Source: a virus. Taken from it: a stretch of 24,114 nucleotides of DNA. The position numbers were made by a program, and so were the translations under genes. Location: positions 1-24,114 of IMG/VR virus record IMGVR_UViG_3300031776_000002; one strand, written 5' to 3'. The notes under the pieces are model-generated. The model was given only the letters and a program-made list of their open reading frames with translations, did no database searches and was not told the DNA's origin. Positions 15,333 to 22,863 of this stretch are shown one piece after another. Positions within the stretch are counted from its first letter, which is position 1, and each line of letters begins with the position of its first letter.

Positions 15333-15381
15333 ACGCCAGAAGGCCGATTTTTCGGGTTTCTCTAGTCGCACGCTGCGAACA

Positions 15382-15402
15382 GAAAAAATCTGGAAAAATC
15401 TG
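15382..15402 (+). promoter_or_regulatory. Two phased A-tracts upstream of the early promoter (UP-element-like)
   Basis: The direct repeat GAAAAAATCTG / GAAAAATCTG runs at 15382-15392 and 15393-15402. The A-tracts are one helical turn apart (11 bp) and fall about 45-65 bases upstream of the predicted transcription start, where the RNA polymerase alpha subunit binds. In an otherwise GC-rich genome this is conspicuous. It could also be a repressor operator. Confidence 0.45.
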
Positions 15403-19315: not shown

Positions 19316-20040
19316 GGCTAGTGCGATATCTCGCCGCTGCCGGCGCCCTAATCTTGCTGCTGGTGTGGGCCACCGACACGGCCGGTGCAGAAGAGAGCAC
19401 CGAGCAGACCATCCGTAGGGTGTCGCAGGAGGAAGGGATCGACGGCAACCTTGCGGTTTCTGTTGCCAGGTGTGAGTCGAGCCTGCGGCACGACGCCAGG
19501 AACGGGAAGTACCGGGGCGTGTTCCAGATGGGGCCCGGCTGGGCCTCGCACAGCGGGTCGGTGGAAGACCAGACCCGGGAATTCGCCAGTGCGGTCAAGG
19601 CAGGGAGCGCTGCGAGGCACTGGGCGTGTTGGCCGAGGGGTAAGGCGGGCCGAGGGAGCGCGAGCAGGAGAACGCTGCAAGCCCGGCCCCCAACCGGTAC
19701 CGACCGCTGCGACAGGGCGACTGGGGAGTGGCGCTGTCATCCGAGCTGGACCAAACCCGACGCTCTCACTGTGTCGCCCACGATAGAGACCGACCCAGGC
19801 CCCGAGATTGAGTCTTGTGCCTGGGAAGGAACCGACTGGACCTGCGTTCGCAAAAGCGTCGAAGTGCCAGTCCAGGAGGAGCCGCCCGAGATTATCACCA
19901 GTACGGTGCCCAGCAAAGACCCGATGGGCTTCTGGGGGTGGCTGGACGTCATAATCCTAGCAACGATTGCGGTTATGGCGGTCCTGGGCAGGAGCATGAA
20001 AGAAAAGGGGACGGCCCGAGGACCGTCCCCCGATCCCTAG
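19312..20040 (+). CDS. Secreted or membrane-anchored lytic transglycosylase-like protein
   Basis: 242 aa from ATG 19312 (ATGA coupling). Residues 1-26 form a signal peptide or anchor (MRLVRYLAAAG, hydrophobic core, possible cleavage after AGA). Then 'VSQEEGIDGNLAVSVARCES' with catalytic-type Glu55, followed by 'YRGVFQMG', is the lysozyme-like SLT/resuscitation-factor pattern. A middle section has two short Cys repeats of the form C-x(5-6)-W-x-C ('CDRATGEWRC', 'CAWEGTDWTC'). Near the end, 'GWLDVIILATIAVMAVLG' is a second membrane segment with a cytoplasmic tail. The enzyme would act on peptidoglycan outside the membrane. An early-region, membrane-tethered cell-wall enzyme is unusual: virion entry enzymes are normally in the tail module. 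Its 3' end contains a stem-loop. Confidence 0.72.
   Translation: MRLVRYLAAAGALILLLVWATDTAGAEESTEQTIRRVSQEEGIDGNLAVSVARCESSLRHDARNGKYRGVFQMGPGWASHSGSVEDQTREFASAVKAGSAARHWACWPRGKAGRGSASRRTLQARPPTGTDRCDRATGEWRCHPSWTKPDALTVSPTIETDPGPEIESCAWEGTDWTCVRKSVEVPVQEEPPEIITSTVPSKDPMGFWGWLDVIILATIAVMAVLGRSMKEKGTARGPSPDP
20007..20030 (+). promoter_or_regulatory. Stem-loop A of a duplicated pair
   Basis: Eight-bp perfect stem (GGGGACGG / CCGTCCCC) with loop CCCGAGGA, inside the 3' end of the transglycosylase gene and 27 bases before the GTG of the next gene. Read on the minus strand, CCGTCCCC is followed by TTTTCTTTC, so it has intrinsic-terminator form for leftward transcription. The near copy at 20189-20210 has the same distance to the next start, which favours an RNA operator or insulating element. 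Confidence 0.6.
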
Positions 20041-20057: not shown

Positions 20058-20246
20058 GTGATGGAGAACTTTTCAGAGCTGAGTAGCAGTTTACACCAAG
20101 CCCGCAGCGAGTGCAAGCACTGGCCGGGGGAGATGCTCGACGGGCCCGGGGATAGTGTGCTAGAATTTGGAGCGTACAGAAAAGAGAAGGGACGGCCCGC
20201 AGACCGTCCCGAACCCCAAGCACGAACAAGGAGGGGTAATTGGTAG
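20058..20246 (+). CDS. Small ORF of unknown function between the paired stem-loops
   Basis: 62 aa. GTG 20058 is chosen because AAAGGAGG (20043-20050) is 7 bases away; ATG 20061 directly follows and is the alternative. Sequence: 'MENFSELSSSLHQARSECKH', 'WPGEMLDGPGDSVLEFGAYR', then a basic end 'KEKGRPADRPEPQARTRRGN'. The basic end is partly encoded by stem-loop B and its surroundings. It overlaps the next gene by 7 bases. No family recognised; a regulator of the downstream replication genes is conceivable but untested. Confidence 0.5.
   Translation: MMENFSELSSSLHQARSECKHWPGEMLDGPGDSVLEFGAYRKEKGRPADRPEPQARTRRGNW
20137..20166 (+). promoter_or_regulatory. Possible internal promoter for the replication genes
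   Basis: An extended -10 (TGC then TAGAAT, 20158-20166) with a partial -35 (TCGACG, 20137-20142, spacing 18) lies just before stem-loop B and the replisome organizer gene. The predicted start is near 20173, so stem-loop B would be at the beginning of the transcript. The -35 is poor and the site lies inside a small ORF, so confidence is limited. Confidence 0.3.
20189..20210 (+). promoter_or_regulatory. Stem-loop B of a duplicated pair
   Basis: Seven-bp stem (GGGACGG / CCGTCCC) with loop CCCGCAGA, 29 bases before the TTG of the replisome organizer gene. It matches stem-loop A (20007-20030) in stem, loop start and A-rich 5' flank, but the surrounding codons are in another register, so the similarity is not from protein conservation. 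On the minus strand it is followed by TTCTCTTTTC. Confidence 0.6.
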
Positions 20247-21625
20247 TAACAGCCTACAACAAAGCACACCGGATGTCAAGCACAGCATACCGCCTCTTGC
20301 GCCTACTTTCCGAGTCCGCCGACGAAGCCGGGATCATCGAGATGACACAAGAGGAGATGGCTTCACGGCTGGGTGCCTGTCGGCGAGCTGTAGCCAACGC
20401 CATGAAGAGCCTGACGGCGCTTGGTCTGGTGAGTCGGCCGGGGAACGGCATCTACCTACTCGGTGCACAAATGGCGCATAACAACCGCACAACCGATGCA
20501 TATTCGGTGCATATTCCGTCCATAGAGGATGCACAGACAGGTTGTGGGATGCACGAAGGCAGCACAGGGGATGCACCTTCGGTGCACATTACGTGCATAG
20601 ATGAGCCTAACTCTACTAGGGACTATATATTGTCTAGACTACAGCAAGGTAAACCAGTGAAGGAGCAAGAGAAACTAGAGCAAGAGTTAGAGCAACTACA
20701 GCAAGAAAAAGCAAAACTGCAGCAAGAGCTGGTAAAACTACAACAAGAGGTCGAGAGGCTTCGAAGCGAAGTCAAAAAGCTGCAGTCAAAGCGAGCCGCC
20801 ACCCCACCCGTCAGCGAGGAGCCCGAGGCGCCAGAGCCGGAGGCCGAGGCGCTGCCACCTGGTCAGCTCAAGGTCTCGGATTCAGCACCCGAGCCACCCG
20901 ACCAGTTTCCCCAGAACGAAACCGATGCCTGGCTTTCCGTGTCCGACGCGGTGGCGATCTGGAACGAGACCTGCTCGCCGCCGCTACCGTCAGTCCGCAC
21001 GATAACCCCGAAGCGCCGCCAGCAACTGCGTGCCCGTCAGCGGGAGCACCCGCAGCTACGCACTGCGGACGGCTTCCGGGAGTTCTGCCAGTCAGTGGCC
21101 GCCAGCCCGTTCTTACGGGGTGAGACGGGCCGGGACACATGGCGAGGGGCTACCTTCGACTGGTGCCTGACGCCGACCTACTGCGTGCGCATCATCGAGG
21201 GCCACTACGCCCCGCCAGAGCAGCGGTCGGCGCAGCAAATCCAGAGCGCTTTCGCGTGGCTGGAACGTGCGCGGGAGGAACGGGAAAGGCAGCGGAAGCG
21301 GTCAGTGGAGGAGATCGAGGAGGTGAGGCGAAATGAGCAACGATCCGCAGAACGACGCAGGGATGAGTTACACCGAGTTCGTGGAGGCGATCAAGCTACT
21401 CTGCTTGTGCTTCCGTCAGCCGCCACTGAGCGAGGAGGAGCTACAGGCGTGGTACACGGTGGGGAAGATGAGCAAGCGGAACCCCCAGGACATGGCGGCG
21501 GCAGTGGAGAGCCTAGCCCTGAGCCTGGACCGGTTCCCCTCGTTGTCGCAGCTTGTCGAGGCGATCCAGGAGGCCAAGTGGGAGCGGAAGCGGAGCCAGG
21601 CAGCAACGGAGGTGGTAGGCGATGA
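20240..21625 (+). CDS. Phage replisome organizer / replication initiator (O-like), 3' end uncertain
   Basis: TTG 20240 with AAGGAGGGG upstream; open to TGA 21623-21625 (461 aa). Winged-helix domain at about 12-75 ('MTQEEMASRLGACRRAVANA', 'GLVSRPGNGIYLL'). A linker (about 76-135) is encoded by the iteron DNA, then a heptad coiled coil (about 140-182, repeating KLQQE) and an acidic Pro-rich linker follow. The C-terminal domain (about 230-330) has 'AVAIWNETCSPPLPSV', 'FREFCQSVAASPFLRG', 'TFDWCLTP' (Thr305) and 'RIIEGHY', matching the conserved C-terminus of phage replication proteins that recruit the helicase loader. Residues after about 364 look non-coding: they cover the next gene in another frame, lose third-position GC bias and are Gly/Pro/Arg-rich. 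The authentic protein may end near 21332. Confidence 0.85.
   Translation: MVVTAYNKAHRMSSTAYRLLRLLSESADEAGIIEMTQEEMASRLGACRRAVANAMKSLTALGLVSRPGNGIYLLGAQMAHNNRTTDAYSVHIPSIEDAQTGCGMHEGSTGDAPSVHITCIDEPNSTRDYILSRLQQGKPVKEQEKLEQELEQLQQEKAKLQQELVKLQQEVERLRSEVKKLQSKRAATPPVSEEPEAPEPEAEALPPGQLKVSDSAPEPPDQFPQNETDAWLSVSDAVAIWNETCSPPLPSVRTITPKRRQQLRARQREHPQLRTADGFREFCQSVAASPFLRGETGRDTWRGATFDWCLTPTYCVRIIEGHYAPPEQRSAQQIQSAFAWLERAREERERQRKRSVEEIEEVRRNEQRSAERRRDELHRVRGGDQATLLVLPSAATERGGATGVVHGGEDEQAEPPGHGGGSGEPSPEPGPVPLVVAACRGDPGGQVGAEAEPGSNGGGRR
20464..20604 (+). repeat. Array of 11-bp iterons (consensus TGCAYA + 5), putative replication origin
   Basis: Units begin at 20464, 20475, 20486, 20497, 20508, 20519, 20530, then 20550, 20561, 20572, 20583 and 20594. 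Spacing is exactly 11 except for one 20-bp step after 20530. Eight units start with TGCA, two with CGCA, one each with AGCA and TCCA; the next bases are CA or TA in ten of twelve. Two 32-bp stretches (20495-20526, 20570-20601) match at 27 of 32 positions. An 11-bp period is not a multiple of three, so it reflects DNA-level constraint. Location between the initiator's DNA-binding and C-terminal coding parts mirrors lambda ori within O. Confidence 0.82.
20605..20760 (+). other. A/T-rich segment beside the iterons, candidate DNA unwinding element
   Basis: Immediately right of the iterons the base composition shifts: ACTATATATTGTCTAGAC (about 20621-20639) and then a long A-rich, purine-biased + strand (repeated GCAAGA, CAAGAG, AAAACT) inside an otherwise GC-rich genome. 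In iteron origins the helix opens in such an adjacent segment. Part of the bias comes from coding a Lys/Gln/Glu coiled coil, so the role is inferred from position. Confidence 0.55.
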
Positions 21626-21629
21626 GTGA
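21333..21629 (+). CDS. Helicase loader-like protein (G39P/loader-and-inhibitor type)
   Basis: 98 aa from ATG 21333, with GAGGTGAGGCG just upstream. A small all-helical domain: 'YTEFVEAIKLLCLCFRQPPL', 'SEEELQAWYTVGKMSK', 'MAAAVESLALSLDRFPSLSQ', 'LVEAIQEAKWERKR'. The pattern 'W...l......d...A...l......FPs...l' is that of the SPP1 G39P-type loader/inhibitor, which brings the hexameric helicase to the initiator. Placement between initiator and helicase is exactly right. Codon third positions are strongly GC-rich, so this frame is the real one even though the upstream gene's frame also stays open here. The stop overlaps the helicase start by 8 bases. Confidence 0.75.
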   Translation: MSNDPQNDAGMSYTEFVEAIKLLCLCFRQPPLSEEELQAWYTVGKMSKRNPQDMAAAVESLALSLDRFPSLSQLVEAIQEAKWERKRSQAATEVVGDE

Positions 21630-22863
21630 GAGGCCAGCGGCTGAGCAGGCAGCGCAAGACGGAATCGAGCCTGTCCACGATTACGTCGCAGAGGCTGCGG
21701 TGGTCGGGGCGGCAATGCTGCATGACGGACTAGCACGCGAGCTGACGTTTCTGGAGCCGGAGGACTTCTCGTCCTGGTTGTGGTCAGTGTGCTGGTCGGA
21801 AATACAAAACCTCGCCCGGCGCGGTCTGACGCCGGACCTGACCGCCGTCACAAGTGAGCTGCGTCGGAAGAGGAACCTGGCGCCCGAGCTGCTGCGGCAG
21901 GTCGCCGACGCTGTTGACGTGGCGCCGACGGAGATGTATGCCGCCCAGTTGGCGAGGCGGGTAAAGACCATAGCCAGGCTTCGAAGGCTGCAACTAACGT
22001 GCTATGAGATCGCCAAGGCGGCGAGTGAGCCTATGGCAGACGAGGACGCCGAGCGGCTGCTGTCCCGGGCGCCCGAGTCGGTGAGGCAGGCGACGGGAGG
22101 GACGATAGCGACAACGCCCATGCGGGCTGCGGTCGATGTGGTGGCCGAGGCGCTTTGGGCTGGCGATGACGGCGTCGGCCCGGTCGAGTGGTGCGGGATA
22201 ACGACGATCGAGCGCTTGGTGGGAAGGATGAGGCCAGGGCTGTCCATCATCGGCGCCAGAACGGGACTCGGCAAGTCAACCTTCCTGTTGCAGTGTGCGG
22301 TCAGATGGGCATCGGCAGGCTACCGGGTGCTGTTGTGCGACATGGAGATGAGCGAACGGGAAGTCGGGCGGCGGTTGCACCGGCAATGCGAGACGCTGCA
22401 CCTTGAGGTGCCGCAGACGCTGTGGATCACAGGCCCGGACATCCGAGACATCGGCACCATCTGTTCGCTGGCGGAGGAGTTGCTGCGGGATGAACGCCCG
22501 GGCTTGGTCTGTGTGGACTACGTGCAGTTGGTCACGGGAGCGAAGGCGGAACGGAGGGACCAAGAGCTCGCGATCGTGTCGCGGGCACTGCACGAGTTGG
22601 GGCTGCGGCTGGAGTCGCCAGTGTTGGCGGCGGCCCAGTTGCGTCGGACTCGGGGAGTGAGGCCGACCCTGGAAGACTTGCGCGAGTCAGGAGCGCTTGA
22701 ACAGGACGCCGGCGTCGTGTTATTGTTAGTCGAGGGAGATGACGACCTCGAACTGCGTGTCGCGAAGAACCGCTACGGGCCGACGGGCTGGACGGCGGTT
22801 GAACTGGAGCCGGCCTCGGTGCGGATAAAGGAGGTGGTCCATGCCGCAGAGGAAAGGCAGTAG
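21622..22863 (+). CDS. Replicative DNA helicase, DnaB family
   Basis: 413 aa from ATG 21622 with GGAGGTGGTAGGCG upstream. N-terminal domain (about 18-120): 'EAAVVGAAMLHDGLARELTF', 'LEPEDFSS', helices of the DnaB collar. RecA-like ATPase domain: Walker A 'GARTGLGKST' (211-220, Lys218), 'VLLCDMEMSEREVGRRLHRQ', Walker B 'GLVCVDYVQLV', 'ESPVLAAAQLRR', 'DLRESGALEQDAGVVLLL', and arginine finger/C-terminal motif 'AKNRYGPTG'. A hexameric 5'-3' helicase that would unwind the fork after loading at the phage origin. Slightly short compared with bacterial DnaB (about 450 aa), mostly in the N-terminal part and linker. It overlaps the next gene by 23 bases. Confidence 0.93.
   Translation: MSERPAAEQAAQDGIEPVHDYVAEAAVVGAAMLHDGLARELTFLEPEDFSSWLWSVCWSEIQNLARRGLTPDLTAVTSELRRKRNLAPELLRQVADAVDVAPTEMYAAQLARRVKTIARLRRLQLTCYEIAKAASEPMADEDAERLLSRAPESVRQATGGTIATTPMRAAVDVVAEALWAGDDGVGPVEWCGITTIERLVGRMRPGLSIIGARTGLGKSTFLLQCAVRWASAGYRVLLCDMEMSEREVGRRLHRQCETLHLEVPQTLWITGPDIRDIGTICSLAEELLRDERPGLVCVDYVQLVTGAKAERRDQELAIVSRALHELGLRLESPVLAAAQLRRTRGVRPTLEDLRESGALEQDAGVVLLLVEGDDDLELRVAKNRYGPTGWTAVELEPASVRIKEVVHAAEERQ

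Follow-up and report, generated by a model that had tools for sequence, protein, structure and literature searches.

An 11-bp iteron array within an O-like initiator gene is the probable replication origin of an uncultivated virus

An array of twelve short direct repeats at 11-bp steps, located inside a gene for an O-like replication initiator, is most likely the initiator-binding part of the replication origin of the virus analysed here (an IMG/VR virus record; the window, i.e., the whole stretch of DNA that was analysed, is 24,114 bp long and has 63% G+C). The initiator would bind the array, open the flanking DNA and recruit the helicase, a reading to which we assign a probability of about 0.86. 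It rests on a periodicity that withstands codon shuffling, a winged-helix coding region that ends at 20461, 2 bp ahead of the array, a melting minimum after the array, the recurrence of the arrangement in homologues and the precedent of phage Tuc2009. The original prediction of a phage origin at this position is thus well supported and is by far the best reading of the region, origin activity being deduced from these features. The elements of the region are as follows.

20240..21335, plus strand: replication initiator gene, TTG start with AAGGAGG just upstream (O-like, phrog_345, E=3.2e-20)
20291..20461, plus strand: winged-helix or Crp-like HTH domain, aa 18-74, the putative reader of the iterons (PF13545 HTH_Crp_2, 33.3 bits, cutoff 27)
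20464..20604, plus strand: iteron array, 12 units (T)GCAY(A)NNNNN with an 11-bp period, in the linker coding region
20464..20540, plus strand: first block of the array, 7 units in strict 11-bp register
20541..20549, plus strand: spacer of 9 bp, GTTGTGGGA, which creates the sole 20-bp step (20530 to 20550)
20550..20604, plus strand: second block of the array, 5 units in strict 11-bp register
20598..20760, plus strand: A-rich stretch and candidate DNA unwinding element; from 20598 on lie the window's least stable 100 bp
20630..20797, plus strand: coiled coil, a putative self-association element, encoded by a heptad (21-bp) repeat and overlapping the A-rich DNA
20939..21211, plus strand: conserved C-terminal domain of the O-like initiator, aa ~234-324 (tblastn E=5e-11)
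21333..21629, plus strand: 98-aa ORF between initiator and helicase, with a coding signature (GC3 0.86)
21622..22863, plus strand: DnaB-like replicative helicase (PF03796, 5e-32; phrog_19, 2e-59)

The units of the array start at positions 20464, 20475, 20486, 20497, 20508, 20519, 20530, 20550, 20561, 20572, 20583, and 20594, and all of these positions, as well as the 11-bp steps with one step of 20 bp, had been given correctly in the original prediction. Over the 12 units the first six columns hold T in 9, G in 11, C in 12, A in 12, C or T in 12, and A in 10, and the bases after column 6 are only weakly conserved. Four units differ in bases 1-2 (CGCATA, CGCACA, TCCATA, and AGCACA) and two deviate in column 6 (TGCACG at 20550 and TGCACC at 20572), so that (T)GCAY(A) stands for a consensus and not an exact word. 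The autocorrelation that had been proposed as a check for an 11-bp peak reached 0.519 at lag 11, 0.48 at lag 22, and 0.43 at lag 33 in the array, where the lag-11 maximum of the window is located (window mean 0.263, sd 0.040). A two-unit scan of the window gave 17 matches against a chance expectation of 3.25, all but three of them within or touching the array, and no second array was found elsewhere in the 24,114 bp. The boxes had also been suggested to lie roughly on one face of the helix. This holds only approximately, as they drift by ~1/3 to 1/2 of a turn across the array: the distance from the first to the last unit is 130 bp, or ~12.4 turns at 10.5 bp per turn, and with a unit step of 11 instead of 10.5 bp the sites must spiral slowly along the helix, while the 20-bp step moves the register slightly back.

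The array had been placed between the winged-helix and C-terminal coding regions of an O-like initiator, and the matches to PF13545 and phrog_345 are in agreement with this. The initiator gene also matches phrog_10469, phrog_19658, and phrog_22470, and its C-terminal domain aligns with a Pseudomonas phage 'DNA replication protein O' at 42%. The coiled coil is indicated by a 21-bp repeat detected by TRF at 20694-20748 and by weak matches to coiled-coil Pfam families. An AlphaFold model of the whole initiator had a mean pLDDT of 49 with a single helix above 90 around residues 150-180, and the model was not used for a fold search as the coiled coil is its sole confident part. The open frame of the initiator continues to 21625 (461 aa), and its codon-position G+C is that of coding DNA only to ~21330, where the signal shifts to the frame of the 98-aa ORF. 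Since it has no stop before 21625, the initiator frame overlaps nearly the whole of this ORF, which is read in another frame, from 21333 to 21625; the overrun is explained by a long overlap or else by an assembly indel close to where the initiator gene ends. The product of the 98-aa ORF is a suspected helicase loader by virtue of its position. It has no match in Pfam, in PHROG, among PDB sequences or by fold (Foldseek), and the Pfam, PDB sequence, and Foldseek searches gave no support to an identity as a gp39-like loader. The short stretch upstream of the initiator gene has two near-identical hairpins, at 20006-20031 and 20189-20210, with the sequence GGACGGCCCG(AG/CA)GACCGTCC and with T-runs after them on the minus strand only.

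A/T-rich DNA had been said to follow the array, and the stability minimum of the window indeed starts at 20598, directly past the last unit. In a nearest-neighbour scan the stretch from 20598 has a value of -125.8 kcal/mol relative to a window mean of -156.7 (sd 6.1), i.e., it lies five sd off the mean. GC3 is 0.35-0.50 across array and flank as opposed to mostly 0.65-0.95 in the rest of the initiator gene, and the A-richness of the flank must therefore partly reflect codon choice and not amino acids alone; another part of its composition is owed to the coiled-coil residues. The second least stable stretch of the window, at 15377-15402, contains a tandem AAAAATCTGG repeat; immediately after this repeat come a TTGACA-like sequence and a small gene in which a 24-bp repeat of the PEPEAE type occurs. 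The G+C skew shows no change at the array site within the 24-kb piece and is uninformative as origin evidence here.

The array repeats are clearly under selection at the DNA level, since neither recoding nor codon permutation ever reproduced the phased boxes or the lag-11 value. When the array peptide was recoded synonymously, 0 of 20,000 sequences reached the observed lag-11 value or the observed number of phased boxes, and when the initiator gene's own synonymous codons were permuted the signal at lag 11 had a z of 5.1, with none of 1000 shuffles reaching the observed value. The units moreover cycle through all three codon frames. It could be argued that a linker of repetitive or low-complexity protein sequence gives rise to the periodicity, as a true protein heptad repeat adjoins the linker (21-bp period, 20694-20748), but steps of 11 bp do not keep the codon frame, the array peptide, GAQMAHNNRTTDAYSVHIPSIEDAQTGCGMHEGSTGDAPSVHITCIDE, is no simple repeat and a lag-11 value of 0.52 was never obtained by synonymous shuffling. 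We regard this explanation as having practically no probability, the codon shuffles having ruled it out, and the shuffles together with the three-frame rotation confirm the initial claim that protein repetition alone cannot account for the 11-bp period.

Selection on the DNA could in principle serve other functions. It is conceivable, albeit rather improbable, that the units are initiator sites used mainly for autoregulation of the gene, or sites for another regulator, and that the origin is located elsewhere. Operators can be multi-copy, binding sites within a gene could block transcription and the winged helix is of the Crp regulator type; however, the array is found within the coding region and not at a promoter, it has 12 copies, it abuts the melting minimum and it is the only array in the window. 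The same layout is furthermore present in the initiator genes of many phages, and the in-gene repeats of Tuc2009 are an origin. Still less credible, and very improbable indeed, is an array of sites for a host factor, e.g., DnaA boxes, instead of sites for the phage initiator. TGCACA does resemble the 3' half of the DnaA box and in some viral contigs (L102, L013, and L082) TTATCCACA and TGCATAA are interleaved at 11 bp, but DnaA-box-like 9-mers (TTWTNCACA) occur 11 times in the window against 10.8 expected, and even with one mismatch allowed the array has none, and the units of other phages are unrelated in sequence, which is a poor fit to one conserved host protein. A bacterial oriC-type cluster of DnaA boxes is ruled out by the lack of box excess in the window. 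Among viral contigs, non-coding arrays in which DnaA boxes (TTATCCACA) alternate with TGCATAA at 11-bp steps were observed in L102, L013, L034, L082, L112, and L028, and this family of viral contigs possibly has a mixed origin with sites for both DnaA and the initiator.

With the array taken as the initiator-binding part of the origin, a sequence of events can be proposed. Each helical turn would take up one initiator molecule, bound by its N-terminal winged helix to an 11-bp unit in head-to-tail order, and the molecules would form two blocks of 7 and 5, split by the 9-bp spacer. Judging from lambda O and SPP1 gp38, the resulting nucleoprotein filament may strain and open the A-rich, least stable DNA downstream, and the coiled coil could join neighbouring initiators, which would probably help the filament. 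The C-terminal domain of the initiator would then recruit the DnaB-type helicase of the phage, whose gene is the second ORF downstream, perhaps with the 98-aa protein as intermediary.

A search for close relatives by means of the initiator or the helicase returned one distant initiator match and no helicase match, and thus no close relative of the virus in which the boxes themselves could be compared. The design, on the other hand, recurs widely. A DNA pattern scan for three phased TGCA-type units detected at least 120 viral contigs and, among the contigs listed, 39 had the units in an ORF, some of them on the opposite strand. All of 10 initiator-looking ORFs from among these 39, picked for this appearance, matched initiator, primosomal or helicase-loader PHROGs of several families. 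A TGCA-type unit at 13-bp spacing was present in 23 contigs, and in none of these were the repeats in an initiator-like ORF. Non-coding 11-bp TGCACA arrays were also seen in six viral contigs (L079, L069, L116, L300, L302, and L304) and may be origins that lie outside the initiator gene but in its vicinity.

A periodicity of 10-12 bp at z>=3 was found in 26 of 78 dereplicated initiators chosen solely by their C-terminal protein profile, compared to 2 of 66 neighbouring genes from the same loci that served as controls; when 21-23 bp was included the numbers were 34 of 78 and 3 of 66, and the mean z was highest at lags 11 and 22. For 43 prophage initiators selected by PHROG profiles from 291 genomes of the class Clostridia, the mean z was 1.91 at lag 11 and 1.62 at lag 22, with <=0.83 at other lags, and 10-12-bp periodicity was found in 20 of the 43 relative to 2 of 36 controls. 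About half of the tested initiators had no significant short-period array by this measure. The linker units vary among phages (NNNNTAACCAA, GGCAAACCAAG, GTGAACAACAA, CCTGTATCCAA, TGACAACCATT, and others). Alphaproteobacterial initiators mostly have two-turn (21-23 bp), often palindromic units, e.g., GGTGAACCCAGTTCACC, and Pseudomonas phage initiators have two-turn units such as GGCACCAGATGCC. In the initiator of one alphaproteobacterial prophage (L403) a very regular 22-23-bp palindromic repeat, GGTGGTGAACCCAGTTCACCA, is found in the linker (z 8.2) and is a strong candidate for a two-turn origin. A linker kept without the 11-bp phasing had been named as a refuting outcome of the comparison of homologues; in the homologues available, which include no close relative, a phasing of roughly one or two turns recurs while the unit sequence changes. 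The original view of the 11-bp design as unfamiliar among described phage origins is not supported, since initiators of many phages and prophages share it, including that of Tuc2009.

Within the Clostridia set the similarity of units tracked that of the winged helices (rho 0.34, Mantel p 0.003), and between unit similarity and C-terminal similarity there was no correlation (rho 0.03). Such a pattern would arise if the units are read by the winged helix, and it is suggestive only. The correlation was not replicated in the C-terminal-homologue set (rho 0.00), where many array assignments are weak, and in the pooled data it is the Clostridia set that gives rise to the signal. Co-inheritance alone could also yield such a correlation because the winged helix and the array are adjacent on the DNA. 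We lean slightly toward the view that such phage origins belong to a broad class with a modular build, in which a winged helix and its adjacent array would be inherited as a unit, with the array placed in linker codons as one-turn direct monomer sites or two-turn palindromic dimer sites, and would be swapped independently of the C-terminal helicase-recruiting domain. If this is true, the origin can be read directly in many phages from different bacterial phyla, and the sequence by itself suffices to predict its unit.

The window itself allows the origin of an uncultivated virus to be predicted precisely; with a tested precedent for its architecture it is only moderately surprising, and more interest attaches to how widely the one-turn/two-turn pattern extends. 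A simple test, namely whether periodicity at the helical turn withstands codon shuffling in the initiator linker, can serve to locate origins in many phages and prophages. One-turn direct sites alternate with two-turn palindromic ones, and together with the changing units they are a natural data set for the co-evolution of winged-helix initiators and their sites. Our search, which covered open papers, found no description of an 11-bp class of phage iterons, an absence that weighs little given this coverage, and in the same papers it found no statement of the breadth of the one-turn/two-turn pattern.

Iteron origins within genes are known from lambda, SPP1, 80alpha (where the origin is inferred), and the P335 phages (PMC7466680, PMC6316719, PMC5499656, PMC8965321). 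The array of the window lies in the coding region of a phrog_345 initiator, is selected at the DNA level and adjoins a candidate unwinding element, and it is best read as an in-gene iteron origin in the style of lambda and Tuc2009, with a long one-turn tandem array and a unit of its own, for which origin activity is predicted. As in the window, the iterons of lambda ori are located in the initiator gene between the DNA-binding and C-terminal domains, with A-rich DNA after them, but they are four palindromes of 18 bp at 20-24-bp steps, i.e., two turns and dimer sites, whereas the units of the window are direct and one turn apart. When lambda O was used as a control, the annotated iterons gave a signal at lag 23-24 (lag 23, z 3.4). 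Lambda ori proper was rejected as the class for the array, which has 11-bp direct units and lacks palindromic iterons of 18-19 bp at about two turns. The phrog_345 O-like initiators of Pseudomonas phages and alphaproteobacteria share a homologous C-terminal domain with the window and have iterons in the same linker; they differ in that these are mostly two-turn (21-23 bp) palindromic units, GGCACCAGATGCC or GGTGAACCCAGTTCACC. In SPP1, oriL consists of direct repeats in gene 38 beside an AT-rich unwinding element, and the phage has genes for a loader and a DnaB helicase (PMC6316719). By description the gp38-gp39-gp40 arrangement resembles the window in its repeats inside the initiator gene, its AT-rich element and its phage-encoded DnaB helicase. 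The 98-aa ORF of the window lies in the place where a gp39-like loader gene would be expected and has no detectable similarity to gp39. The in-gene origins of 80alpha and TP901-1 gave no clear 11-bp signal by the same measure, and the one-turn tandem is therefore one design among several. The closest parallel to the one-turn arrangement is found in the lactococcal phage Tuc2009 of the P335 group, where direct repeats inside the gene are the experimentally determined origin and are bound by Rep (PMC8965321). The record of Tuc2009 Rep carries the annotation 'contains origin of replication', and in the rep gene CAACCA occurs at gene positions 341, 352, 363, and 374, i.e., 11 bp apart and in three codon frames, with a z of 4.1 at lag 11. 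Both systems have direct repeats at 11-bp steps, in three frames, in the initiator gene just past the winged-helix part, and in the window the units run head to tail directly past the winged-helix coding region. The unit sequence is not shared (CAACCA as opposed to TGCAYA), Tuc2009 has four adjacent units where the window has twelve, and its host is a low-G+C Gram-positive bacterium and its protein is shorter, without the long coiled coil. The window adds a one-turn direct design like that of Tuc2009, with a different unit and with an array longer than most of the examples compared.
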